From NCBI RefSeq assembly GCF_000024025.1, contig NC_013131.1:3162001-3226000 (forward strand): 64,000 nt of DNA. The letters run 5' to 3'. How positions within the stretch are numbered: the stretch's first letter is position 1; each line of letters opens with the position of its first letter. The position numbers and the translations under genes were made by a program. Source of the stretch: Catenulispora acidiphila DSM 44928 (lineage in GTDB: Bacteria; Actinomycetota; Actinomycetes; Streptomycetales; Catenulisporaceae). Below the pieces are notes generated by a model that did no database searches, had not been told where the DNA came from, and was given only the letters and a program-made list of their open reading frames with translations. Below are positions 3,794-18,507 of this stretch, one piece after another.

Positions 3794-3874
3794 GTGGACC
3801 GCGACTCCGGTACGTACTCCCGCCGTCATATCGACCTCCGGCGCAGCGCCAGCGCCCTGTGTCCCGGTCGCTGA
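3794..3874 (+). CDS. Cysteine-type leader peptide 1
   Basis: A 26-codon open frame with GTG start and a good ribosome site (AAGGAG at 3782-3787). The peptide contains SRRHIDLRRSASALC followed by Pro-Gly-Arg and a stop. The R-H-(I/V)-D-L-R-x-x-S-A-L-C pattern is the hallmark of short actinobacterial leader peptides found before sulfur-assimilation genes, where ribosome stalling at Cys codons reports cysteine charging. A perfect 8-bp hairpin (3890-3906) follows the stop by 15 nt. The next gene is the DinB-fold protein at 4095. It is too short for normal gene callers. The role is inferred from family pattern. Confidence 0.75.
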   Translation: MDRDSGTYSRRHIDLRRSASALCPGR

Positions 3875-3889
3875 GTCCACGCCGCTGAC

Positions 3890-3906: not shown

Positions 3907-4094
3907 AACCGGGAAGCCTGGCTGTCCGCCGTTCCCCGACGCGGCGCGCCCGCGCCCGCACTCGCGTCCGCACCATGATCTGCGAAAGCCCATGGCACAC
4001 AGCCGCATCGCGTCGGTGGGCCGGGCGCGGGTCGTCAGTGCTCTGCTTCGCATCCCCACCTCCGCTGAACCACGCCACGACAGGACCAGAGGCG

Positions 4095-5015
4095 ATGACG
4101 ATGACCATGACAACGACCACGACACCGACACCGACAACGACCCAGGCCACTGCGTCACGGGTACGGCCTCGGACCCGCAAGCCGCCGAAGCCGCTCCGAC
4201 CGCTTCCGGAGCCGTATCGCCTGACCTGGTGGACCCGGCCCGGGCAGCCGACTTTCGACGACGTCTGCGATGCCCTGGCGTTCCAGCACTTCATCCTGGA
4301 CGAACTGCTCCAGCCGGTCAGGGAGTCCCAGTGGCGGGCTCCGACCCCGTCGGCCCGGTGGCGGGTCGCCGATCTGCTGGGCCAGGTCATCGCGAGTGCC
4401 GAACACGTGGTCCAGACGGCGCACGCCTCGCAGCCCCGGCGCCGGGCGCCGGTCCTGGACGCCTTGGACTGGTATCAGGGGTCTGGTTCGCTCTCCACGC
4501 TCACCGTCGAACAGGCCCGTGCCGTCGCCGGCTCGGCGCCCGGGGCGCGATTTGCTGAGCTGGCCGAGCTCGCCGAGTTGGCCAGGCTGCACCGGGTCGC
4601 GGCCTCGACAGCGGCGGCGATACTGCGCTCGGGGGAGCCGGGGCTCGTCCTGCGCGGCGCGGCCGGCGGCATCACGCTGGCCGATTACACGGTGACGCGT
4701 CTGGTGGGAGCCGTCGTGCACGGCCTGGATCTCGCCGACGCGCTCGGCCGTCCAGGGCGCGCCCACGGTCCGGCCGTGCGCCTGGTCGGCGGCTACTTCG
4801 CCGCGCTCGGAGAGCGTCGCGGCCCGGCCGGGTCCCGATCGGCGCCGATCGCCCTGGGCACGGACGGCTCGCTCATCGCGCTTCATGCCAAGCGTCCGGC
4901 GACGATCGTCCCGGCGATCAGCTGGATCCAGGCGGCTACCGGTCGCCGTCCCGCCGGAAGGCTTCTGCCGGACTCCCATCAGTGGCTCGCAGACCTCTTA
5001 CCGCTGGCCACCTGA
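4095..5015 (+). CDS. DinB-fold mycothiol-dependent enzyme-like protein (maleylpyruvate isomerase N-terminal type)
   Basis: About 306 residues. After a Thr-rich N-terminus, the region around residues 55-260 fits the four-helix DinB/MDMPI fold of mycothiol-dependent enzymes: FDDVCDALAFQHFILDELLQ, then RAPTPSARWRVADLLGQVI with the usual downstream His (AEHVV), and later VTRLVGAVVHGLDLADALG. This family catalyses thiol-dependent isomerisation or transfer; the substrate is unknown. ATGs at 4095, 4101 and 4107 are all possible. The AGAGG at 4088-4092 is best spaced for 4101. Position behind a Cys-type leader peptide links it to sulfur or thiol metabolism. It is convergent with the TetR gene downstream. 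Confidence 0.7.
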   Translation: MTMTMTTTTTPTPTTTQATASRVRPRTRKPPKPLRPLPEPYRLTWWTRPGQPTFDDVCDALAFQHFILDELLQPVRESQWRAPTPSARWRVADLLGQVIASAEHVVQTAHASQPRRRAPVLDALDWYQGSGSLSTLTVEQARAVAGSAPGARFAELAELAELARLHRVAASTAAAILRSGEPGLVLRGAAGGITLADYTVTRLVGAVVHGLDLADALGRPGRAHGPAVRLVGGYFAALGERRGPAGSRSAPIALGTDGSLIALHAKRPATIVPAISWIQAATGRRPAGRLLPDSHQWLADLLPLAT

Positions 5016-7433: not shown

Positions 7434-7450
7434 GATACCTTCAGGAGTCT
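7434..7450 (+). promoter_or_regulatory. 17-bp element upstream of the Rrf2 gene, shared with the sulfur operon
   Basis: GATACCTTCAGGAGTCT overlaps the AT-rich patch that is the likely promoter of the Rrf2 gene (TATTTT and CTAGAGT follow directly). A 14-of-17 match on the opposite strand lies at 9158-9174, immediately upstream of the sulfur operon leader peptide. It is a candidate binding site for the Rrf2 regulator. The rest of the 358-bp gap (7185-7542) holds no convincing gene. Confidence 0.5.
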
Positions 7451-7542: not shown

Positions 7543-7980
7543 ATGCGTGTCTCGGCCAGAACCGATTACGCCGTCCGCGTCCTGATCGAGCTCGCCGCGG
7601 CCGATTCCCGGCCGGTGACCTGCGAGGCCATCGCCGAATCGCAGCAGATCCCGTACCGCTTCCTGAAGGCGGTCGTCCGCGATCTGCGCGTGGCCGGCCT
7701 GGTGCGCAGCCAGCGCGGCTGTGAAGGCGGCTACTGGATCGGCCGGGAAGCCGCCGAGATCGCGCTGGCCGACGTCGTGCGCGCGGTCGACGGCGAGTTG
7801 CTCACCGTGAACGACGTGCCGCCGGCTGACGTCGCCTATCCCGCACCGGCCGCCGGGCTGGGTCTGTTCTGGCTCGCCCTGGGTGCGCGCGTCGAGGACC
7901 TCTTCGGCGCTGTCAGCATCGCCGACCTGCTGAACCAGACCGCTCACGCCGCGTTGGGCGCGCCCGCCCTGCGGACGTGA
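7543..7980 (+). CDS. Rrf2 family transcriptional regulator (CymR-like?)
   Basis: A 145-residue protein with the Rrf2 winged helix: MRVSARTDYAVRVLIELAA, IAESQQIPYRFLKAVVRDL and the wing VRSQRGCEGGYWIGREA. The three-Cys cluster loop used by IscR, NsrR and RirA to hold an iron-sulfur cluster is missing. It therefore resembles cluster-free members such as CymR, the cysteine-metabolism repressor of Firmicutes. Immediately downstream are the cupin and DsbA-like genes, then the organosulfur operon, which supports a role in sulfur control (inference). ATG 7543 is fixed by the start of family similarity. Confidence 0.85.
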   Translation: MRVSARTDYAVRVLIELAAADSRPVTCEAIAESQQIPYRFLKAVVRDLRVAGLVRSQRGCEGGYWIGREAAEIALADVVRAVDGELLTVNDVPPADVAYPAPAAGLGLFWLALGARVEDLFGAVSIADLLNQTAHAALGAPALRT

Positions 7981-8422: not shown

Positions 8423-9180
8423 GCGCGCCGCGGCTGCGGGTGGTGGAGTTCACCGATCCGGCATGCCCCTGGGCTTGGGGATCGGAGCCGAAGTTCCGCC
8501 GGCTGCGCGCGGCGCTCGGGCCGGACGTGCGGTGGCGGCGGGTGTTCGGGATCCTGTTCGACGACGGCGAGCCGCCCGCGCCGGACCCGGCCGCCGAGGC
8601 CGCCTGGTATCTGAGCGAGGTCCGGGAGATCGCGGCCCACACCGGTGCGCCGGTTCCCGAACGCCTGGCCTGGGTGATCGCGAGCAGTTGGCCGGCCTCG
8701 CTGGCCGCCAAGGCCGCCGAGCGTCAGGGCTCGGAGATCGCCGACGCCGTCCTGTGGCGGCTGCGGGAGACGACGTTCGCCGACGGCGAGCCCGCGGACA
8801 CCCCCGAGCGCGTCCTGGCCGCTGTCCGCCGACTGCCGGGGCTGAACGCCGACCGGCTGGCCGCCGACGCCGCGGCGCCGCAGACCCTGGCCGCCGTGCG
8901 CGCCGACTGGGCCGAGACCCGCGCGCCGTGCCGGGAGGTGCTGGAGCTCGACGTGCCCGGACGGCATCCGGGGCGGGCCAAACCGCTGGGCGAGGAGCCG
9001 GCGGACGGCTTCCGCTACGCCTTGCCCACGCTGGTCTTCCACGGGCCCGCGGGGCGCGCCGTCGTGCCCGGGTGGCGTGCCGAATCAGAGTACTTCGACG
9101 CCGTCCGCGCCGTGGCGCCCGGGCTCGCCGCCGCCCCCGCCGGCGTCTCGTCTCATAAGACATCTGTAGGTATCAATTGA
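8419..9180 (+). CDS. DsbA/FrnE-like thioredoxin-fold protein
   Basis: A 253-residue protein with the DsbA-like thioredoxin fold. The N-terminal strand LRVVEFTDPACPWAWGSEPK carries CPWAW in place of the redox CxxC, so only one active-site Cys remains. The helical insertion and the cis-Pro strand (YALPTLVFHG) follow the FrnE/polyketide-isomerase pattern. A thiol-dependent (glutathione- or mycothiol-like) transferase or isomerase role is more likely than disulfide exchange. The GTG at 8419 overlaps the cupin stop. The 3' end of the gene contains the 17-bp element at 9158-9174 that may control the next operon. Confidence 0.78.
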   Translation: MSAPRLRVVEFTDPACPWAWGSEPKFRRLRAALGPDVRWRRVFGILFDDGEPPAPDPAAEAAWYLSEVREIAAHTGAPVPERLAWVIASSWPASLAAKAAERQGSEIADAVLWRLRETTFADGEPADTPERVLAAVRRLPGLNADRLAADAAAPQTLAAVRADWAETRAPCREVLELDVPGRHPGRAKPLGEEPADGFRYALPTLVFHGPAGRAVVPGWRAESEYFDAVRAVAPGLAAAPAGVSSHKTSVGIN

Positions 9181-9181
9181 C
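9158..9181. promoter_or_regulatory. Promoter-proximal element of the organosulfur operon
   Basis: AGACATCTGTAGGTATC at 9158-9174 is the reverse complement of the Rrf2-upstream element at 7434-7450, with 14 of 17 matches. TTGACA at 9176-9181 could be a -35 box for the leader transcript, though no clear -10 follows. The site lies inside the last codons of the DsbA-like gene, just 30 bp before the leader peptide. Confidence 0.45.
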
Positions 9182-9203
9182 AGAGCTGCGACTTCACGCC
9201 ACG

Positions 9204-9302
9204 ATGAGCTCCATGACTCGCATCCACCCCGGCGTGGTCTGCCGCTACGTCGACTTCCGGCGTACCTCCAGCGCCCTGTGTTGCGCCAGCGCTAGCCGCT
9301 GA
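9204..9302 (+). CDS. Cysteine-type leader peptide 2 (organosulfur operon)
   Basis: A 32-codon frame (ATG 9204; a second ATG at 9213 is in frame). The peptide contains CRYVDFRRTSSALCC followed by Ala-Ser-Ala-Ser-Arg and a stop. It matches the actinobacterial sulfur leader-peptide pattern R-(H/Y)-V-D-(L/F)-R-R-x-S-S-A-L-C. The tandem Cys codons TGT TGC at 9279-9284 lie near the end, as needed for a ribosome-stalling cysteine sensor. It precedes an eleven-gene organosulfur uptake and oxidation operon by 261 bp. The leader RNA between holds mutually exclusive hairpins (see 9463-9506). Confidence 0.85.
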   Translation: MSSMTRIHPGVVCRYVDFRRTSSALCCASASR

Positions 9303-9371
9303 GTCTTCCGGCGAGCCCGCGCCTCGCCACCCGGCCGTTCTCCCCTGAGCCGAACCTGTCTGTGCTGAACC

Positions 9372-9396
9372 GGATCGCCGCGTGCCGGCGCGATCC
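9372..9396 (+). other. Leader RNA hairpin A
   Basis: GGATCGC at 9372-9378 pairs perfectly with GCGATCC at 9390-9396, giving a 7-bp stem in the untranslated leader of the organosulfur operon. It is one of several structured segments between leader peptide 2 and the substrate-binding protein gene. Its role is unknown. Confidence 0.4.
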
Positions 9397-9462
9397 CGCC
9401 TCAAGCCAGGCGTTGCGGCGACTCCACGGCGTCGCCCGACCCGCTTTCCCCCCGAACTTTCG

Positions 9463-9506
9463 CACAGTGCTGTGACCAGCCCGCCGCAGCGGCGGGCGCA
9501 CAGCAC
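9463..9506 (+). terminator. Candidate attenuator with alternative hairpins
   Basis: Two structures compete here. CACAG (9463-9467) can pair with CTGTG (9470-9474). Alternatively, GTGCTGTG (9467-9474) pairs perfectly with CACAGCAC (9499-9506), enclosing the perfect 9-bp stem GCCCGCCGC/GCGGCGGGC (9479-9497). The larger fold has 17 base pairs with one small internal loop. It is followed about 18 nt later by a pyrimidine-rich stretch (9525-9545). It ends 57 nt before the SBP start and does not cover its ribosome site, which suggests transcriptional control. No reading of which state is default is possible from sequence. Confidence 0.55.
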
Positions 9507-9563
9507 GTGTCGCCGCACCCACCGACTTCTTCGTTTCCGACCTTTCCGAGAGGCGATTCCGCC

Positions 9564-11120
9564 ATGCCTGCCTTCCCGTCCTCGCTCGTGAAACCGGGCC
9601 GCCGCCTGGCCGCCGCCGCGGTCGTCCTGTCCCTGGCCGCCTGCGGCGGCACCGCCACCGCCGGCAGCACGGCCGAGCAGTCCGGCGGCGGCGCGGCCAC
9701 GGCCTCCGGCACGCTGAAGTGGGGCTGGGCCCTGCCGACCTCGTGGGACCCGGTGACCTCCTCCGCGGGCTGGGACGTCCACGCCCTTTCGCTGGTCTAC
9801 GCCGGCCTCACTCAGGAGGACGCCGCGGGCAACGCCGTCCCGGCGCTGGCGAGTTCCTGGAAATACAACACCGCCGGAACCGAGATCACCTTCACGCTGC
9901 GGCCGAACCTGACGTTCAGCGACGGGACGCCGCTGGACGCCACCGCCGTGAAGGCGAACATCGAGCGTGGCCGCGACGAGAAGGACTCGCTGATCGCCTC
10001 GCAGCTGACGAGCGTCAAGCAGGTGAGCGCGCCGAGTCCGGACACGGTGGTGGTCGACCTGGCCCAGCCGAACTTCCAGATCCCGACCCTGTTCGCCGGC
10101 AAGACCGGCATGCTCGTCAGCCCGGCCGCGTTCACCGGCAACCGGGCGGGACTGGCGCTCAAACCGGTGGGAGCAGGGCCTTTCACGCTCTCTTCCTACG
10201 TCCAGAACTCCAAAGCCTCGCTGGTCCGCAACCCCAAATTCTGGAACGCCTCGCAGATCCACATAGCGAACTTCGAGCTCTACCCGCTCCCCGACCCCTC
10301 CACCGCCGTGGCCGGTCTGACCTCCGGGCAGTACAGCGTCGCGCAGATCCCCGGGAACCTGGTGGCCGCGGCCAAGTCCGCCGGGCTCAAGGTGCAGGTG
10401 ATCCCGTCGCTGGTGGTGTCGGTCCTGGACGTCAACAACACGATCGCGCCGTTCGACGATCCGAACGTCGACCAGGCGCTGAAGTACGCGGTGGACCGCA
10501 AGGCGCTGTTGCAGACCGCGAACTTCGGCGTCGGCGACGTCTCCTATCAGCCGTTCCCGAAGGGTTACGTGGGATACAGCGATGCGGTCGGCGAGCCCTA
10601 CGCGTACAACCCGGATAAAGCAAAGACACTTCTGGCAGCGTCCAAGTACGGCGCCCATCCGGCCGTCACCATCACCACCAGCACGGCAGCGGGGGTTCCC
10701 GAGCAGCTTCAGGCTCAGCTGCAAGCGGTGGGCTTCACCGTCAAGATCGAGGTGATCCCGGCTGCGCAGTTCACGCAGATCGTCTACGTCCAGCACTCCC
10801 GCGCTCTGACCGTCGACGCCTTTGCCGGCCGTGACTCCACGGCCCAGGCGTTCCAGGTGTTGTTCGGCAAGGCGGGGCTGCTCAACCCCGGACGCGGTGT
10901 CAGCCCCGATCTCCAGGCGGCGGTCGACAAGATCAGCACCACGCCGCTGGACAGCCCGGACTACCCGGCGGTGGTTCAGGCGGCGACCGCGCTGGCGGTG
11001 CAGCAGGAGCCGAACGTGTTCCTCTACACCGTGCCGCGCATCCTGGCGCACTCCTCCTCGGTCTCCGACCTTCCGGCCGACACCGTGGTGCAGCGCTTCG
11101 AAGGGGTGACGGCCAAGTGA
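9564..11120 (+). CDS. ABC transporter substrate-binding lipoprotein, SBP family 5 (Opp/Dpp/Gsi type)
   Basis: A 518-residue lipoprotein: basic start (VKPGRRLAAAAVV), lipobox LSLAAC with Cys27, then a Gly/Ala/Thr linker. The mature domain shows the family 5 signature (SDGTPLDATAVKANIERGRD) and DVNNTIAPFDDPNVDQALKY with the AVDRKALL helix. Family 5 proteins bind peptides, nickel, glutathione or opines. Here the operon context points to an organosulfur ligand such as an S-containing peptide, sulfoxide or sulfonate (inference). ATG 9564 has GAGAGG upstream. The stop overlaps the permease start by 4 bp. It would sit on the outer face of the membrane. Confidence 0.9.
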   Translation: MPAFPSSLVKPGRRLAAAAVVLSLAACGGTATAGSTAEQSGGGAATASGTLKWGWALPTSWDPVTSSAGWDVHALSLVYAGLTQEDAAGNAVPALASSWKYNTAGTEITFTLRPNLTFSDGTPLDATAVKANIERGRDEKDSLIASQLTSVKQVSAPSPDTVVVDLAQPNFQIPTLFAGKTGMLVSPAAFTGNRAGLALKPVGAGPFTLSSYVQNSKASLVRNPKFWNASQIHIANFELYPLPDPSTAVAGLTSGQYSVAQIPGNLVAAAKSAGLKVQVIPSLVVSVLDVNNTIAPFDDPNVDQALKYAVDRKALLQTANFGVGDVSYQPFPKGYVGYSDAVGEPYAYNPDKAKTLLAASKYGAHPAVTITTSTAAGVPEQLQAQLQAVGFTVKIEVIPAAQFTQIVYVQHSRALTVDAFAGRDSTAQAFQVLFGKAGLLNPGRGVSPDLQAAVDKISTTPLDSPDYPAVVQAATALAVQQEPNVFLYTVPRILAHSSSVSDLPADTVVQRFEGVTAK

Positions 11121-12289
11121 CGGCCGGCGCCGAGGATGTGGAAGACGTCGCAGACCTCGACGACCTCGAAGACCTCGCAGATCTCGAGAACCTCGCAGAT
11201 CTCGACGCGCCGGGCCGCGTCACGGGGATCATCTTCAGGGTCCTGAAATTCGCGGCGATCCCGGTGACGGTGTTCCTTGTCGCCTCGTTCGTCACCTTTG
11301 GTCTGGGAGCGCTAGGCGGGGCGAACCCGGCCGCGACCGCGCTCGGCGACACCGCGACTCCGGCCGACATCGCCCGCGTCAACCACCAGTTCGGCCTGGA
11401 CCGGCCGTTCCTCGTCCAGTACGCGAGCTGGCTCGGGCACGCCCTGACCGGGAACCTGGGCCGCTCGTACTTCACCTCGATCCCGGTGTCGACGAGCATC
11501 GGCCAGGCCCTTCCGGTGGACCTCTCGATCGCGGTGCTGGCACTGCTCCTGGCCGCCGCGGTGGGGGCGGCGGCCGGGATCAGCGCGGCCCGCCGGGCCG
11601 GCGGCTGGTGGGACCGTACGGTCACGGTCGCCGCCTCCGGGCTGGCCACCGTGCCGCCGTTCCTGGTGGGCATCGCGCTCATTGTGGTCTTCTCGGTGTT
11701 CCTCAAGGTGCTGCCGTCCGGCGGCTACGTCCCCTTGGGTCAGAACCCGGCCCAGTGGCTGCGTTTCGCGATCCTGCCGGCGCTCGCGCTGAGTGTGGAG
11801 AGCGCGGCGGCGGTCGCCCGGCAGTTGCGGACCTCGCTGGTCGGCGCGCTGGGGGAGAACTACGCGGTCGGCGCCGCCGCGCGGGGTCTGTCGTCGCGCC
11901 GGGTGCTGTACCGGCACGTCCTGCGCAACGCGGCCGGTCCGGCGCTGACGGTGCTGGGGTTGGAGGTGCCGAACCTGATCGGCGGCGCGGTGATCGCCGA
12001 GAAGATCTTCGTGCTGCCGGGGGTCGCGCAACTCGCGCTGCAAGCCGGCTCCACGCACGACATCCCTGTGGTGCAGGGCACGCTGTTGGTCACGATCACC
12101 GTGGTGCTGATCAGCAACCTCGCCGTCAACGCCGCACTGGTCCGGCTCAACCCGCGGGCCCGGCGCCGGACGGTGTGGCGGCGCGCGAGTCTGCCGATCA
12201 CGGGCCCGGCGGCCGTCGCGGGTCGTTCGGGCCGTCCGGGCGGCCCGGGCGCAGCGGGAACAGCGGGAACAGCGGGGGCGACCTCATGA
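11117..12289 (+). CDS. ABC transporter permease (DppB/GsiC type) with acidic N-terminal repeat
   Basis: A 390-residue permease. After an unusual acidic stretch (residues about 3-30, repeats of D-L-x-D-L-A-D), six membrane segments follow. The first is FAAIPVTVFLVASFVTFGLG. The family motif PATALGDTATPADIARVNHQFGLD (in parts) and the EAA-like loop (ENYAVGAAARGLSSRRVLYR) are present. It forms the import channel with the next permease. The GTG start overlaps the SBP stop (GTGA), and the end overlaps the next ATG (ATGA). The C-terminus is also unusual, with a Gly/Ala/Pro-rich tail. No internal Met offers a shorter start before the first membrane segment. Confidence 0.9.
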   Translation: MTAGAEDVEDVADLDDLEDLADLENLADLDAPGRVTGIIFRVLKFAAIPVTVFLVASFVTFGLGALGGANPAATALGDTATPADIARVNHQFGLDRPFLVQYASWLGHALTGNLGRSYFTSIPVSTSIGQALPVDLSIAVLALLLAAAVGAAAGISAARRAGGWWDRTVTVAASGLATVPPFLVGIALIVVFSVFLKVLPSGGYVPLGQNPAQWLRFAILPALALSVESAAAVARQLRTSLVGALGENYAVGAAARGLSSRRVLYRHVLRNAAGPALTVLGLEVPNLIGGAVIAEKIFVLPGVAQLALQAGSTHDIPVVQGTLLVTITVVLISNLAVNAALVRLNPRARRRTVWRRASLPITGPAAVAGRSGRPGGPGAAGTAGTAGATS

Positions 12290-13170
12290 GGATCCTGCGA
12301 AAGACGTGGCAGTTCCGTTCGGCGCGGATCGCGGTCGCGGTCATCGCCCTGATCGCGGTCCTGGCGGTCTTCGGCCGGGCGCTGGCTCCGCACGACCCGC
12401 TGGCGCAGAACCCGGCCGCGGCGCTGCGCGGTCCGGGCGCCGGGCACTGGCTGGGCACCGACTACCTCGGCCGCGACGTGCTGTCCCGGCTGATGGCCGG
12501 GACCGGCGCCTCGGTGGTCGGGGCGCTGGAGGCGGTGGCCATCGGGCTGGCCGCCGGGGTCCTGCCCGGTCTGGCCTCGGTGTGGCTCGGACCGGCCTTC
12601 GAGTGGGTCTCGGCGCGGATCGTCGACGCCTTGCTGACGCTGCCGTACGTGGTGTTCGCGGTCGCGGTCACCGGCGTGCTGGGCAACGGCCTGACCGTGG
12701 CCATGGCCGCGATCGGCATGCTCCTGGCGCCCCGGTTCTTCCGGATCACCCGGGCGGCGGCGCTGAGCCAGGCGGGCTCGCAGTACGTCGAGGCGGCCGA
12801 GCTCGCCGGCGCCTCGCGCTGGTGGATCCTGCGGCGGCACATCTGGGGCAAGATCAGCCCGACGATCGCCGTGACCACCGCGCAGGCCTTGGCCGCCGCG
12901 CTGTTGACGGTCTCCTCGCTGGCCTTCCTGGGCCTGGGCGTCGAGCCGCCGCTGCCGACCTGGGGCGAGATCCTCAGCAGCGATCTGACCTACCTGTCGG
13001 TGCAGCCGTGGGCGCCGCTGGTCCCGGGTCTGCTCATCATGGCCGCCGCCGCAGCGCTGAACGCCCTGGCCGACGCGGTCCGGGACGGCTCGGCGGCCGT
13101 CGACCTCCCGCGTCCCCCAGCGGCCGTACCGGAAAAGGAGCACGCCGATGTCAGCCTCGCAGCTGTCTGA
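12286..13170 (+). CDS. ABC transporter permease (DppC/GsiD type)
   Basis: A 294-residue permease of the DppC type. The N-terminal membrane segment (IAVAVIALIAVLAVFGRALA) is followed by the family hallmark APHDPLAQNPAAALRGPGAG and HWLGTDYLGRDVLSRLMAG, then the EAA loop SQYVEAAELAGASRWWILRR. The Asp-Pro-Leu and Gly-Thr-Asp-x-x-Gly-Arg-Asp motifs are complete. It pairs with the upstream permease. The ATG overlaps the upstream stop by 4 bp, and its 3' end overlaps the ATPase gene by 23 bp, showing tight translational coupling. Confidence 0.92.
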   Translation: MRILRKTWQFRSARIAVAVIALIAVLAVFGRALAPHDPLAQNPAAALRGPGAGHWLGTDYLGRDVLSRLMAGTGASVVGALEAVAIGLAAGVLPGLASVWLGPAFEWVSARIVDALLTLPYVVFAVAVTGVLGNGLTVAMAAIGMLLAPRFFRITRAAALSQAGSQYVEAAELAGASRWWILRRHIWGKISPTIAVTTAQALAAALLTVSSLAFLGLGVEPPLPTWGEILSSDLTYLSVQPWAPLVPGLLIMAAAAALNALADAVRDGSAAVDLPRPPAAVPEKEHADVSLAAV

Positions 13171-14053
13171 CACCGCGCCGGTGGACAGCCGTCCGCCGGC
13201 CACCCATCCCCTGGGTGCCCGCGAGCAGCAAACCGCCTCGACGGACGGTCGGCCGACCGTCCTGTCCGTCGCCGATCTGAGGGTCGAAGCCGGCGGCACC
13301 GAACTGGTCCGCGGCGTCTCCTTCACCGTCGGCCGCGGCGAGATCGTCGGCCTGGTCGGTGCCTCCGGCAGCGGCAAGACCCTGACCTGCCGGGCGGTCC
13401 TGGGCCTGCTCGCACCCGGCTGCGTCCGCACCGCCGGCGAGGTCCGCCTGGGCGAGTCCGACCTCACCGCGCTGGACAGGCGCGGCTGGGACGCGGTGCG
13501 CGGCGCTCGCGTCGGTACCGTCTTCCAGGACCCGGCCTCCTACCTCAACCCCTCGGTCACCGTGGGCCGGCAGGTCACCGAGGCACTGCGGCTCAAGGCC
13601 GGTCTGGACCGGCGGGCCACGCGCACGCGGGCTCTGGACCTGCTGACCTCGGTCGGTCTGCGCGACCCCGAGACCGTCTACCACGCCTATCCGCACGAAC
13701 TGTCCGGCGGCATGGCGCAGCGGGTCCTGATCGCGATCGCCGTGTCCGGCGATCCGGAGCTGCTGGTCGCCGACGAGCCCACGAGCTCGCTGGACGCCCT
13801 GGTCCAGGCCGGTGTGCTGGGACTGCTGCGCCGGCTGGTCGCCGAGCGCGGCCTGGCGCTGCTGCTGGTCACCCACGATCTGGCCGTCGTCGCCGAACTC
13901 TGCGACCGGGTCCTGGTCTGCGACGCCGGGCAGATCGTGGAGCAGGGCTCGGCGGCCTCCGTGGTGGGCGCTCCGGCCCACCCCCGTACCAGGGCCCTGA
14001 TCGATGCCGCCGCCGTGTGGCACCGCGAGCCGGCCGCCGGGGGAGTGCGATGA
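13148..14053 (+). CDS. ABC transporter ATPase 1 (DppD/OppD type)
   Basis: A 301-residue nucleotide-binding subunit. The Walker A motif GASGSGKT is at residues 71-78, the Q-loop VFQDPASYLNP follows, the signature LSGGMAQRV and Walker B LLVADEPTSSLD are intact, and the switch His sits in LLLVTHDLAVV. The N-terminal 37 residues are a Pro/Thr-rich extension without fold. This is half of the ATPase pair that powers the Opp-type importer. The gene starts within the permease gene (23-bp overlap) and ends in an ATGA overlap with ATPase 2. Confidence 0.93.
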   Translation: MSASQLSDTAPVDSRPPATHPLGAREQQTASTDGRPTVLSVADLRVEAGGTELVRGVSFTVGRGEIVGLVGASGSGKTLTCRAVLGLLAPGCVRTAGEVRLGESDLTALDRRGWDAVRGARVGTVFQDPASYLNPSVTVGRQVTEALRLKAGLDRRATRTRALDLLTSVGLRDPETVYHAYPHELSGGMAQRVLIAIAVSGDPELLVADEPTSSLDALVQAGVLGLLRRLVAERGLALLLVTHDLAVVAELCDRVLVCDAGQIVEQGSAASVVGAPAHPRTRALIDAAAVWHREPAAGGVR

Positions 14054-14832
14054 CCCTCCTCGACGTCCAGGGCCTCACCGTCGCCTACGACCGGCGCCGG
14101 AACGTGCTGACCGACGTGGCGCTCAGCGTCGGCGTCGGCGAGATCGTCGGCGTGGTCGGCGAGACCGGTTCGGGCAAGACCACGCTGGCGCGCGCTGTCG
14201 CCGGGCTGGTTCCGGTCCGGGCCGGCACGATCGGCTTGGCGGGCACCGACCTGGCCGGGCTGCGGGGGCGGGCGCTGCGCGACTTCCGCCGCACCGGGCG
14301 GCTCCAACTGGTCTTCCAGGATCCGCTGCGGGCGCTGGACCCGGATTGGGACGTCAGTGCCCTGGTCGGGGAGCAGCTGGCGGTGGCCGGGACGGTTCCC
14401 GTCGCCGAGCGTGCCGAGCGAGTCGCGGACGCCTTGCGCGCCGTGGGCCTGGACCCGGGGCTGGCCGTACGCCGTCCCGCGCAACTGTCCGGCGGACAGC
14501 GCCAGCGCGTCCTGCTGGCCCGGGCCCTGGTCGGCAAGCCCGCCCTGCTGATCGCCGACGAACCGGTCAGCGCTCTGGACGCCACGTCGCGCAACGACGT
14601 CCTGGCTCTGCTGGCCGGGCTGCGGGAGCACTCCGGCACCTCGCAGCTGGTGATCTCGCACGACCTGCCCTCGCTGGCGGGCCTGGCCGACCGGATCGCG
14701 GTGCTCTACCGCGGCCGGATCGTCGAGCACGGCCCGGTCCGGCGCGTCCTGGAAGAACCCTCACACCCGTACACCGCGCGGCTGGTCGCCGCGACGCCCC
14801 GGCTGCGCCGCCTCCGCCCGGCCGCCGCCTGA
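14050..14832 (+). CDS. ABC transporter ATPase 2 (DppF/OppF type)
   Basis: A 260-residue ATPase. Walker A GETGSGKT is at residues 37-44, the Q-loop reads LVFQDPLRALDPDWDV, the signature is LSGGQRQRVLLARAL, Walker B LLIADEPVSALD and the switch His VISHDLPSL. The EEPSHPYTARLVAATPR tail is the DppF/OppF C-terminal signature (SHPYT). It is the partner of ATPase 1. The ATG at 14050 overlaps the previous stop by 4 bp. A 33-bp gap with AAGGA leads to the next gene. Confidence 0.93.
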   Translation: MTLLDVQGLTVAYDRRRNVLTDVALSVGVGEIVGVVGETGSGKTTLARAVAGLVPVRAGTIGLAGTDLAGLRGRALRDFRRTGRLQLVFQDPLRALDPDWDVSALVGEQLAVAGTVPVAERAERVADALRAVGLDPGLAVRRPAQLSGGQRQRVLLARALVGKPALLIADEPVSALDATSRNDVLALLAGLREHSGTSQLVISHDLPSLAGLADRIAVLYRGRIVEHGPVRRVLEEPSHPYTARLVAATPRLRRLRPAAA

Positions 14833-14865
14833 CCTCCCCGGCACAAGCGAGAAGGACAGAGAACC

Positions 14866-15990
14866 GTGTCAAACCCGAGCAAGCACATAGAGTTCATCGG
14901 TATCACCGGCACCCGCCCCGGCAGCGAGAGCGAAACCGCGCTCGCCGACGGTCCGGTGATCCAACCCGGCTACTTGCAGGAACTCGCCCTCGCCCACGAG
15001 GAGTCCGGCTTCGACCGGGTCCTGATCGCGCATTCCTCGGCCTCGCCCGACGGCTTCGTCATCGCCGACCAGGTCCTGTCCCGCACCTCCCGCATCGGGG
15101 TCCTGCTGGCACACCGCCCCGGCTTCGTCTCGCCGACCTACGCCGCGCGCAAGTACGCCACCCTGGACGCCTTCCACCCCGGCCGGGTCGCTCTGCACAC
15201 CATCACCGGCGGCGACGACCGGGAGCAGGCCCGGGACGGCGACCTGGCCGACAAGGCCACCCGCTACCGCCGCACCGATGAGTTCCTGGCCGTCGTGCGC
15301 AAGGAGTGGGAGAGCGCGGATCCCTTCGATTTCGAGGGCGAGTTCTACACCGTGCGCGGCGGCTGGTCCGCGATCCGGCCCGAGCCCGGCGCGATCCCGG
15401 TCTACTTCGGCGGCGCCTCCGAGGACGCGATCCGGGTCGGGGGCAAGCACGCCGACGTCTACGCGTTCTGGGGCGAGCCGCTGGCCGGGATCGCCGAGCG
15501 GATCGGCGAGGTACGCGCCGCCGCCGCGCCGTTCAGCCGCGACCCGCGCTTCAGCGTCAGCCTGCGCCCGATCCCGGCCGCCACCGAGGCCGAGGCCTGG
15601 GACCGGGCCGCCGAGGTGCTGCGCCTGACCAAGGAACGGGCCGGCCAGGCGCGCAAGGCGTGGGGCTGGGGCGGGGACAAGAAGGACTTCGCCGCCGCGC
15701 GCGGCTCGCAGCGGCTGCTGGAGTACGCCGCCGCCGGGGACGTTCACGACAAGCGGCTGTGGACCGCGGTGGCCAAGGAGACCGGCGCCGCCGGCAACTC
15801 CACCGCTTTGGTCGGCAGCTACGAGCAGGTCGCCGAGGCGCTCCTGGAGTACGTGGCCCTCGGTGTCAGCACTCTGCTGATCCGCGGTTTCTCGCCGCTG
15901 GCTGACGCCCGGGACTACGGCACGCTCATCGGGCTGGTGCGCGCGCAGCACGAGAACGCGCCGCTGGCCGGCGTCGGCGCGGGCGCCTGA
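14866..15990 (+). CDS. LLM-class FMNH2-dependent monooxygenase (SsuD-like paralogue 1)
   Basis: A 374-residue bacterial luciferase-like TIM barrel of the alkanesulfonate monooxygenase group. The blocks IEFIGITGTRPGSESE, IAHRPGFVSPTYAARKYATL and RVALHTITGGDDREQARDGD match SsuD/NtaA-type enzymes, as do IPVYFGGASEDAIRVGGKHA and the C-terminal GNSTALVGSYEQVAEALLEY. Family members use reduced FMN and oxygen to cleave C-S or C-N bonds. It shares closest architecture with the second paralogue at 19736 and is more distant from SsuD at 21624. The GTG start is preceded by AAGGA. The exact organosulfur substrate is not readable. Confidence 0.88.
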   Translation: MSNPSKHIEFIGITGTRPGSESETALADGPVIQPGYLQELALAHEESGFDRVLIAHSSASPDGFVIADQVLSRTSRIGVLLAHRPGFVSPTYAARKYATLDAFHPGRVALHTITGGDDREQARDGDLADKATRYRRTDEFLAVVRKEWESADPFDFEGEFYTVRGGWSAIRPEPGAIPVYFGGASEDAIRVGGKHADVYAFWGEPLAGIAERIGEVRAAAAPFSRDPRFSVSLRPIPAATEAEAWDRAAEVLRLTKERAGQARKAWGWGGDKKDFAAARGSQRLLEYAAAGDVHDKRLWTAVAKETGAAGNSTALVGSYEQVAEALLEYVALGVSTLLIRGFSPLADARDYGTLIGLVRAQHENAPLAGVGAGA

Positions 15991-15996
15991 CCCCTG

Positions 15997-18507
15997 ATGC
16001 CGCCGCCGCACAGCGCCGCGCCGGTCGTCGCCGCGCCGATCGCGCCTGCCGGACCGATTGCGCCCGCCGCACCGGTCGCCGCCGGACCGATTGCGCCTGC
16101 CGCACCGGTCGCCGCCGGACCGATCGCGCCTGCCGGACCGATCGTCGCCGCGCCGATCGCGCCCGCCGCCTCGACCGCCGCCGCGCCGATCGCGCCCGCA
16201 CCGACGCTCTCGCCGACGACCTCGCCGACCACCTCGCACTGGGGCGCGTTCAGCGTGCGCCCCGACGCCGAGGCCGATGGCGGGATCGCGGTGCTCCCAC
16301 ATCCCGCGGACCCGGCGCCTTCCCCGTTGCTCGCGAACGTCCCGGGAGCGCTGCGCCACCGCACCAGGGTTCGCCGGCCCGCGGTCCGACGCGGCTGGCT
16401 GGAGCGCGGACCCGGCCCGGATTCGCGGCGCGGCCGGGAGGCGTTCGTCGAAGTCGGCTGGGACGAGGCGCTGGATCTGGCCGCCGCCGAGGTGGACCGG
16501 GTGCGCACCGGGCCCGGTCCGCGGGCGGTGTTCGGCGGCTCGTACGGGTGGGCGAGCGCCGGCCGCTTCCACCACGCGCAAAGCCAGGTGCACCGGTTCC
16601 TGAACCTGGCCGGCGGGTTCACCGCCTCGCGCAACTCCTACAGCCTGGGGACCTCGCTGGTCGTGCTCCCGCACATCGTCGGCGACGCCGAAGCGGTGCT
16701 GCGTGCCGGATCGTCCTGGCCGACCATCACCGAGAACACCGAGCTGGTCCTCGCCTTCGGCGGCATCCCGGCCAAGAACGTGTTCGTCACTCCCGGCGGC
16801 GTCACCCGGCACGTCACACCCGGGGCGCTGGAGGCGCTGTCCGCCCACATCGCCCTCATCAGCCCGCTGCGCGCCGACCTGCCGGACGGTCTGGACGCCA
16901 CCTGGTATCCGATCGCCCCGGCCACCGACGTCGCCCTGATGCTGGCTCTGGCGCACACCCTCATCGTCGAGGACCTGCACGACCGCGCGTTCCTGGACCG
17001 GTACACCGTCGGCTTCGCAGAGTTCGAACACTACGTGCGCGGCGGCGACGGGACGCCGAAGGACGCCGCCTGGGCCGCCGCGCTCTGCGGTATCGACGCC
17101 GCGGACATCAGAGCTCTGGCACGCCGGATGGCCGCCTCGCGCACCCTGATCACCGTCACCTGGTCCCTGCAGCGGATCCAGCACGGCGAGCAGCCGGTGT
17201 GGGCCGCGATCGCCCTGGCCGCGCTCCTGGGCCAGATCGGCCTGCCCGGCGGCGGCTTCGGCCACGGCTACGGCAGCATGGGCGACGTCGGCGACCACGG
17301 CCCGCAGCGGCGGCTCCCGTACCTGCCCCAGGGCCGCAACCCCGTGGCCGAGTACATCCCGGTCGCACGGATCGCCGACATGCTCCTGAACCCCGGCGCC
17401 GACTACGACTACAACGGCGCGCGCCGGACCTACCCCGACATCCGCCTCGTGTATTGGGCAGGCGGCAATCCGTTCCACCACCATCAAGACCTCGGGCGGC
17501 TGCGCCGAGCCTTCGCCCGACCCGACACCGTCATCGTCCACGAGCCCTTCTGGACCGCCACCGCGCGGCACGCGGACATCGTCTTCCCCGCCACGACACC
17601 CCTGGAGCGCGAGGACCTCGGCGGCGGACGCCGCGACACCCACCTGATCGCGATGCACCAGGCCGTCGCCCCGGTCGGCGAAGCACGCGATGACTATGCG
17701 ATCTTGTCCGATCTCGCCGCGCGGCTCGGATTCGGCGAAGAGTTCACCGAAGGCCGCACCGCGCGCGAATGGCTGGTCCATCTCTACGAAGGCTGGCGTG
17801 CCGACCTGAGCGCCGAAGGCCATGCCGTCCCGCCTTTCGAAGAGTTCTGGCATGCCGGGGACTACCTCCTGCCGGCCGGACCAAGCCACTTCACCCTGTT
17901 CGAGGATTTCCGCGCCGACCCCGACGCGCACCGGCTGCGCACCCCCAGCGGACGCATCGAGATCGTCTCGGAAACGGTGCGCGGCTTCGGATATCCGGAC
18001 TGTCCGGGGCATCCGGCGTGGCTGGAACCCGATGAACACCCCACCGCCGGCACGCCGCTGGTCCTGATCGCCAACCAGCCCGCCACCCGGCTGCACAGCC
18101 AGCTCGACGTCGGCGCACTGAGTCAGGGCTCGAAGATCCACGGTCGCGAGCCGGTCCGGATCCATCCGGCCGACGCCGCCGCCCGCGGCATCGCCGACGG
18201 CGACCTGGTCCGGATCTTCAACAGCCGGGGCGCCTGTCTGGCCGGGGCGGTGCTCGCCGACGGGCTGCGCCCCGGGGTCGTGCAGCTGCCCACCGGCGCC
18301 TGGTTCGACCCGGTATCAGGGTTCGACGACGAGCCGTGGTGCGCGCACGGCAACCCCAACGTCCTCACCGCGGACATCCCGTCCTCACGGCTGTCGCAGG
18401 GCTGCACCGGCCAGCACGCGCTGGTCGACGTCGAGCGCTTCGACGGCGAACCGCCGCCGGTCACCGTCACCGAACCGCCGGTCCTGCTGCGAAAGGAAGA
18501 TCTGTGA
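15997..18507 (+). CDS. Molybdopterin oxidoreductase, BisC/TorA (DMSO reductase) family
   Basis: An 836-residue molybdoenzyme. The family core begins SHWGAFSVRP (about residue 80), followed by GGSYGWASAGRFHHAQSQ and ASRNSYSLGTSLVVLP, where Ser216 sits at the molybdenum ligand position of DMSO and biotin sulfoxide reductases. The bis-MGD contacts continue with WSLQRIQHGEQPVWA and YWAGGNPFHHHQDL, and the C-terminal domain (NQPATRLHSQLD) is complete. There is no Tat signal and no N-terminal [4Fe-4S] domain, so a cytoplasmic sulfoxide or N-oxide reductase is likely. The first 75 residues are an Ala/Pro repeat. The gene is 6 bp after the LLM gene and overlaps the next by 4 bp. Confidence 0.9.
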   Translation: MPPPHSAAPVVAAPIAPAGPIAPAAPVAAGPIAPAAPVAAGPIAPAGPIVAAPIAPAASTAAAPIAPAPTLSPTTSPTTSHWGAFSVRPDAEADGGIAVLPHPADPAPSPLLANVPGALRHRTRVRRPAVRRGWLERGPGPDSRRGREAFVEVGWDEALDLAAAEVDRVRTGPGPRAVFGGSYGWASAGRFHHAQSQVHRFLNLAGGFTASRNSYSLGTSLVVLPHIVGDAEAVLRAGSSWPTITENTELVLAFGGIPAKNVFVTPGGVTRHVTPGALEALSAHIALISPLRADLPDGLDATWYPIAPATDVALMLALAHTLIVEDLHDRAFLDRYTVGFAEFEHYVRGGDGTPKDAAWAAALCGIDAADIRALARRMAASRTLITVTWSLQRIQHGEQPVWAAIALAALLGQIGLPGGGFGHGYGSMGDVGDHGPQRRLPYLPQGRNPVAEYIPVARIADMLLNPGADYDYNGARRTYPDIRLVYWAGGNPFHHHQDLGRLRRAFARPDTVIVHEPFWTATARHADIVFPATTPLEREDLGGGRRDTHLIAMHQAVAPVGEARDDYAILSDLAARLGFGEEFTEGRTAREWLVHLYEGWRADLSAEGHAVPPFEEFWHAGDYLLPAGPSHFTLFEDFRADPDAHRLRTPSGRIEIVSETVRGFGYPDCPGHPAWLEPDEHPTAGTPLVLIANQPATRLHSQLDVGALSQGSKIHGREPVRIHPADAAARGIADGDLVRIFNSRGACLAGAVLADGLRPGVVQLPTGAWFDPVSGFDDEPWCAHGNPNVLTADIPSSRLSQGCTGQHALVDVERFDGEPPPVTVTEPPVLLRKEDL

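Follow-up and report, generated by a model that had tools for sequence, protein, structure and literature searches.

The predicted sulfur-scavenging operon at positions 9564-18507 of the analysed window is preceded by a short ORF encoding a cysteine leader peptide, which very probably responds to the supply of Cys-tRNA and through which translation probably turns the operon on under a shortage of cysteine. In the explanation we favour, to which we give about an even chance, control by an Rrf2-type regulator is combined with ribosome stalling at the UGU codon at position 9279, and the stalled ribosome would relieve what is most likely Rho-dependent termination in the spacer between the leader and the first gene. 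The features seen in the sequence are the leader, the promoter layout, the invariance of the UGU codon, the composition of the spacer, the gene context and the synteny with the Rrf2 gene. The window is the whole stretch of 64,000 nucleotides of Catenulispora acidiphila DSM 44928 and spans 3162001-3226000 of a genome that consists of one contig of 10,467,782 bases; all coordinates below are those of the window.

Leader peptide, promoter and operon

The predicted leader peptide MTRIHPGVVCRYVDFRRTSSALCCASASR (forward strand, 9213-9302; 29 aa) is judged to be real. The best start of its ORF was the second ATG, at 9213, with the stop codon at 9300. As described in the initial annotation, it carries tandem Cys codons, which are TGT TGC at 9279-9284. 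Its end reads ...ALC-C-ASASR-stop. The interval to which that annotation had been assigned (9303-9563) begins only downstream of the peptide. The promoter has the layout TTGACA-N17-CACGAT, with the -35 box TTGACA at 9177-9182 and the -10 box CACGAT at 9200-9205, both on the forward strand. Each of the 19 orthologous loci has the -35 box, at a distance of 35-37 nt 5′ of the leader ATG, and the -10 box, which was defined from ortholog alignments, was mostly CAGGAT in Streptomyces. The spacing of the two boxes placed the predicted transcript start at about 9213 in 19/19 orthologs. As the second ATG falls on this likely start of transcription, the peptide was taken to be 29 and not 32 aa long, and the mRNA is probably leaderless, starting at or next to ATG 9213. 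The start at 9213 was also favoured because the ATG matching 9204 is out of frame at the orthologous locus of genome G012.

Leader, promoter and the same transporter gene were shared with genomes G007, G003, G009 and G012 (five family genomes including that of C. acidiphila), G007 being the closest species. A form in which the final Cys stands alone, MLTTHPGVVCRYVDLRRTSSALCR, or close variants of it, was found by search in 15 Streptomyces-type genomes, and 14 of these 15 loci were examined in full. Promoter and peptide were conserved among the orthologs; the spacer had diverged and could not be aligned. The TGT codon at 9279-9281 (forward strand), regarded here as the sensing Cys codon, corresponds to position 19 of the NCBIfam family NF042934. 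The second, tandem Cys codon, TGC at 9282-9284 (forward strand), was kept in the five close orthologs and missing in Streptomyces, where the orthologs end ALCR-stop, so that the tandem arrangement is not general. A run of Cys codons of the mycobacterial polycysteine type was absent, with two adjacent codons here and one in the Streptomyces orthologs.

The operon behind the leader lies on the forward strand. Its first gene (9564-11120) encodes the SBP_bac_5 lipoprotein of an ABC importer (PF00496, 226 bits) and is followed by the genes of two importer permeases and two ATPases (11117-14832; NCBIfam matches to Opp/Nik-type subunits), of a luciferase-like monooxygenase nearest to alkanesulfonate monooxygenase (14866-15990; TIGR03565, 189 bits, below the cut-off of 518) and of a molybdopterin S/N-oxide reductase of the BisC kind (15997-18507; TIGR00509, 955 bits, cut-off 1017.55). 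The earlier view of a Cys-codon leader placed, in a high-GC actinomycete, before an importer-oxygenase (sulfur) operon is supported. The BisC-type reductase gene is located directly behind the alkanesulfonate-monooxygenase-like gene, and the pair suggests that organic sulfoxides or sulfonates are used as a sulfur source.

The leader family and its putative sensing codon

The leader matched the NF042934 profile ('putative leader peptide') with 17.2 bits (E 0.0029), and thus did not reach the curated cut-off of 27 bits. The core motif is present, RYVDFRRTSSALC aligning to positions 7-19 of NF042934 with D, R and the final C, and we class the leader as a diverged relative of this family. The core R-x-V-D-L-x-R-x-x-S-x-x-C, the near-end position and the sulfur gene context are common to both; in contrast, the N-terminal half reads HPGVVCRY here and usually (L)LVARxH or LTKRRA, and the tandem Cys and the Rrf2-linked operator candidate set this leader apart. 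About 14 convincing relatives were found in the same genome, where they precede genes for cysH (PAPS reductase), CysK/M (cysteine synthase), SsuA (aliphatic sulfonate binding protein), SsuE, TauD, a sulfurtransferase and NtaA/DmoA-type monooxygenases. One of them, MDRDSGTYSRRHIDLRRSASALCPGR, lies inside the window at 3795-3875, has a GTG start and likewise a TGT codon for its final Cys, and precedes a gene (3975-5015) whose product carries the N-terminal domain of mycothiol maleylpyruvate isomerases; since mycothiol is synthesised from cysteine, this position fits the regulon. Among 102 genes located behind relatives of the leader, 27 encoded rhodaneses, 15 sulfite/nitrite reductases, 6 PAPS reductases and 5 PLP-dependent (cysteine synthase-like) proteins. 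Family members were present in 45 of 60 genomes across the class, and a phylum-wide sample of 198 genomes gave matches solely within this class. Searches of the window against Rfam yielded no match at gathering score.

The final Cys of the motif was encoded by TGT in 105/105 members (45 genomes) and in 14/14 further members, i.e. in 119/119 members found with the protein model. Cys codons lying upstream in the same motif were TGC in 65 and TGT in 8 cases (89% UGC; p 4e-40 versus the sensing codon), and flanking genes contained 461 TGC and 64 TGT codons. Independently of the protein model, 385 genomes were searched with a DNA pattern of the RAVDLCRV-type motif; the pattern with a final TGT was found in 124 of them and the pattern with a final TGC in none (0/385). 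Three relatives (L055, L057 and L164) have polycysteine ends (GCCCCCCSC or GCCCCCSC), and in all three the aligned sensing Cys was TGT and the Cys directly before it TGC. No mention of the UGU invariance was found in the searchable literature, the coverage of which did not extend to Canestrari 2020. This codon invariance is what is of real interest here and had been overlooked in the earlier description, as had the Rrf2 linkage and the C-rich spacer.

Asp -9 and Arg -6 were likewise invariant (105/105 members) and yet synonymously free, Asp -9 being encoded by GAC in 77 and GAT in 28 cases and Arg -6 by all four CGN codons as well as AGG; the peptide itself is therefore selected. The motif ending at UGU might accordingly be an arrest peptide, with a stall that needs the peptide as well as Cys-tRNA, an explanation which would also account for the single Cys codon found at the sensing place in most family members and for the retention of a rare codon at the very point of the presumed arrest. 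We consider it rather unlikely; Ser -3 was encoded by AGC in 55/66 cases (background 26%), so that part of the constraint may lie in the RNA. The AGC preference, weaker than the UGU invariance, may reflect such an RNA-level constraint; Ser -4 was mostly TCC.

It is conceivable, although we rate the chance as below even, that across the class Actinomycetes a strictly UGU-encoded Cys closing a conserved motif serves as a codon-specific, peptide-assisted Cys-tRNA sensor of the whole cysteine/sulfur regulon. Wobble decoding and the nascent peptide would together set the ribosome pause, neighbouring UGC codons would be read through, and the present locus would add an Rrf2-type repressor.

RNA structure and composition of the spacer

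The initial annotation had proposed a Cys-tRNA attenuator in which two mutually exclusive hairpins act as a switch. The longer one, a 17-pair hairpin, exists at exactly 9467-9506 on the forward strand (MFE of -34.3 kcal/mol for 9460-9510, z -5.2), and a 44-mer of the same stability occurred in 1 of 150 shuffled spacers and in about 0.15% of the 44-mers of the window. The CACAG/CTGTG hairpin, derived from the 12-nt palindrome CACAGTGCTGTG (forward strand, 9463-9474), cannot close its 2-nt loop and is negligible as RNA, with 4 pairs, -1.3 kcal/mol and a z of -1.0. In the fold of the whole leader RNA the long hairpin had a probability of 0.83 and the short one of 0.0000; the two therefore exclude each other on paper alone. 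Modelling of a ribosome block at the Cys codons, which are about 170 nt away, or at the stop codon changed neither hairpin. No U-tract follows the long hairpin, and no intrinsic terminator (hairpin plus U-tract) was detected in 9100-9640. A changed version of the long hairpin was retained in G007, the closest species (z -2.9); G003 (z +0.4) and G009 lacked it, and in G012 its retention was not clear. Across the family, 4 intrinsic terminators were counted with 2.2 expected, which is no excess. A classical transcription attenuator, with 9467-9506 as terminator and 9463-9474 as antiterminator, can point to a long hairpin that is present, stable and found in related form in the closest species, and is nevertheless very improbable; the two-hairpin switch was rejected, as folding, ribosome blocking and conservation were all against it. 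What stands of the original proposal is the cysteine leader peptide.

A second hairpin, GGATCGCCGCGTGCCGGCGCGATCC (forward strand, 9372-9396), is more conserved than any other part of the spacer. It was found in 4/5 close orthologs, with a U-A pair replaced by U-G as one change, and was thus better kept than the hairpin at 9467-9506; it was nearly unchanged in four loci of the same genus, and its core GCGTGCCGGC also occurred in G012. Alignment of the Streptomyces spacers revealed no conserved structure.

The untranslated spacer (forward strand, 9303-9563) is C-rich and G-poor and is a candidate Rho-loading region. Its C-G skew of 0.22 was attained by 0.8% of the stretches of the window, and values of 0.19-0.34 were obtained in 19/19 orthologs. 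The mean skew after the leader stop was 0.197 in 105 members versus 0.015 in other upstream regions of the own genome, the latter controls not being mapped 5′ UTRs; for the leaders of the own genome, the post-stop skew was 0.181 (p 1.3e-5). Pairing between leader and downstream RNA showed no excess over 78-105 family members (z +0.16). Because of the C-rich spacer, the lack of any excess of pairing or terminators and the presence of Rho among the proteins encoded by the genome, Rho-dependent attenuation was favoured over hairpin switching. Against the Rho step, Rho loading can be predicted only weakly from a C-rich composition, and the strong hairpins of this spacer could hinder Rho.

The main rival is translation attenuation: the ribosome-binding site of the first gene would be covered by folding of the leader or spacer RNA, and stalling of a ribosome at the Cys codons would hold it open. 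Such a mechanism, and not termination, is cited for the relatives of this leader at cysteine genes of M. smegmatis in PMC13236596 (citing Canestrari 2020), and the Shine-Dalgarno region at 9550-9557 was mostly paired in the predicted ensemble. Placing a model ribosome on the Cys codons or on the stop codon, however, did not open this region. Over 78 members, leaders paired no better with their own ribosome-binding site than with other such sites (difference -0.46, sem 0.62) or shuffled sites (-0.03, sem 0.39). The spacer is also long for this mechanism (261 nt here, median 143, up to about 450 in Streptomyces). Translation attenuation is thus considered unlikely, if less so than action of the nascent peptide.

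The Rrf2 regulator and a proposed two-tier control by cysteine

A gene for an Rrf2-family transcription regulator (PF02082 Rrf2, 101 bits) is located at 7543-7980 on the forward strand; its product is a candidate for an actinomycete cysteine regulator of the CymR type. In 18/18 genomes the best Rrf2 homologue was located 1.0-1.4 kb 5′ of the leader ortholog, and the regulator is probably a second tier of operon control besides the leader. The palindromic operator candidate GACATCTGTAGGTATC (9159-9174, no strand assigned), at which the Rrf2 protein is predicted to bind, ends 2 bp before the -35 box. Nearly all 19 orthologous promoters have a palindrome at this position, and in 7/19 it is a perfect 16-bp one, e.g. 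GACACCAATTGGTGTC. Over the whole window the motif had 10 matches at ≤2 mismatches with 9.2 expected, so that it is meaningful by its conserved position alone. A copy with one mismatch, GATACCTTCAGGAGTC, occurs at 7434-7449, shortly upstream of the Rrf2 gene; in relatives a palindrome was not regularly found before the Rrf2 gene itself (5 loci readable), and this copy may be due to chance.

Conservation of the Rrf2 gene and the palindrome would also agree with control by the Rrf2-type regulator alone, the leader being a bystander. Both the peptide and its codon are conserved, however, and the genome contains just three Rrf2 genes of this kind as against the approximately 14 relatives of the leader before sulfur genes, which makes this explanation the least credible of those considered.

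In the favoured explanation, i.e. Rrf2 control together with stalling at UGU and a Rho step, the Rrf2-type regulator encoded just upstream would act at the palindrome abutting the promoter as the first tier. At the second tier, the mRNA would begin at ATG 9213, so that a ribosome could load directly and translate the leader. When charged Cys-tRNA is scarce, the ribosome would stall at the UGU codon at 9279, and this stall may be reinforced by the peptide with its conserved sequence R-x-V-D-(L/F)-x-R-x-x-S-x-x-C. When cysteine is ample, the ribosome would reach the stop codon at 9300 and leave, exposing the C-rich untranslated spacer, which would most likely lead to Rho-dependent termination before 9564; a stalled ribosome would prevent this termination.

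The TnaC leader is subject to Rho-dependent attenuation and senses free tryptophan. The outline proposed here, a stalled ribosome shielding the RNA behind the stop codon from Rho, is shared with the tna operon (cited in PMC1262725), whereas TnaC has no sequence relation to the present leader. In the uORFC-8-2 motif before cysS of Rhodobacterales (PMC8632094), tandem Cys codons are likewise located in a uORF; that motif, however, includes an intrinsic terminator with a run of U residues, and most of its Cys codons are UGC. The mycobacterial polycysteine short ORFs (Shell 2015, PMC4633059; Canestrari 2020, as cited in PMC13236596) have in common with this locus a leaderless uORF, which is predicted here, Cys codons near its end and cysteine or sulfur genes behind it. 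According to the same sources they contain runs of Cys codons, in contrast to the one sensing UGU and one UGC, the 261-nt spacer and the Rrf2 tier found here. Cys leader peptides without terminators, possibly Rho-dependent, were proposed for Actinobacteria, including the mycobacterial cys leaders (Seliverstov 2005, PMC1262725); the Cys leader peptide, the lack of a conserved terminator and the possible Rho step are common to these and the present leader, but theirs belong to other organisms and operons (cys, cbs).

The 2005 proposal of actinomycete cysteine leader peptides came without a mechanism. A synonymous codon that does not vary (124:0) in an otherwise synonymously free motif indicates exactly which base matters, and the mechanism becomes testable by a single U-to-C change. 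The leader family helps in the annotation of dozens of sulfur operons, and this locus illustrates how such a leader may be paired with an Rrf2-type regulator.
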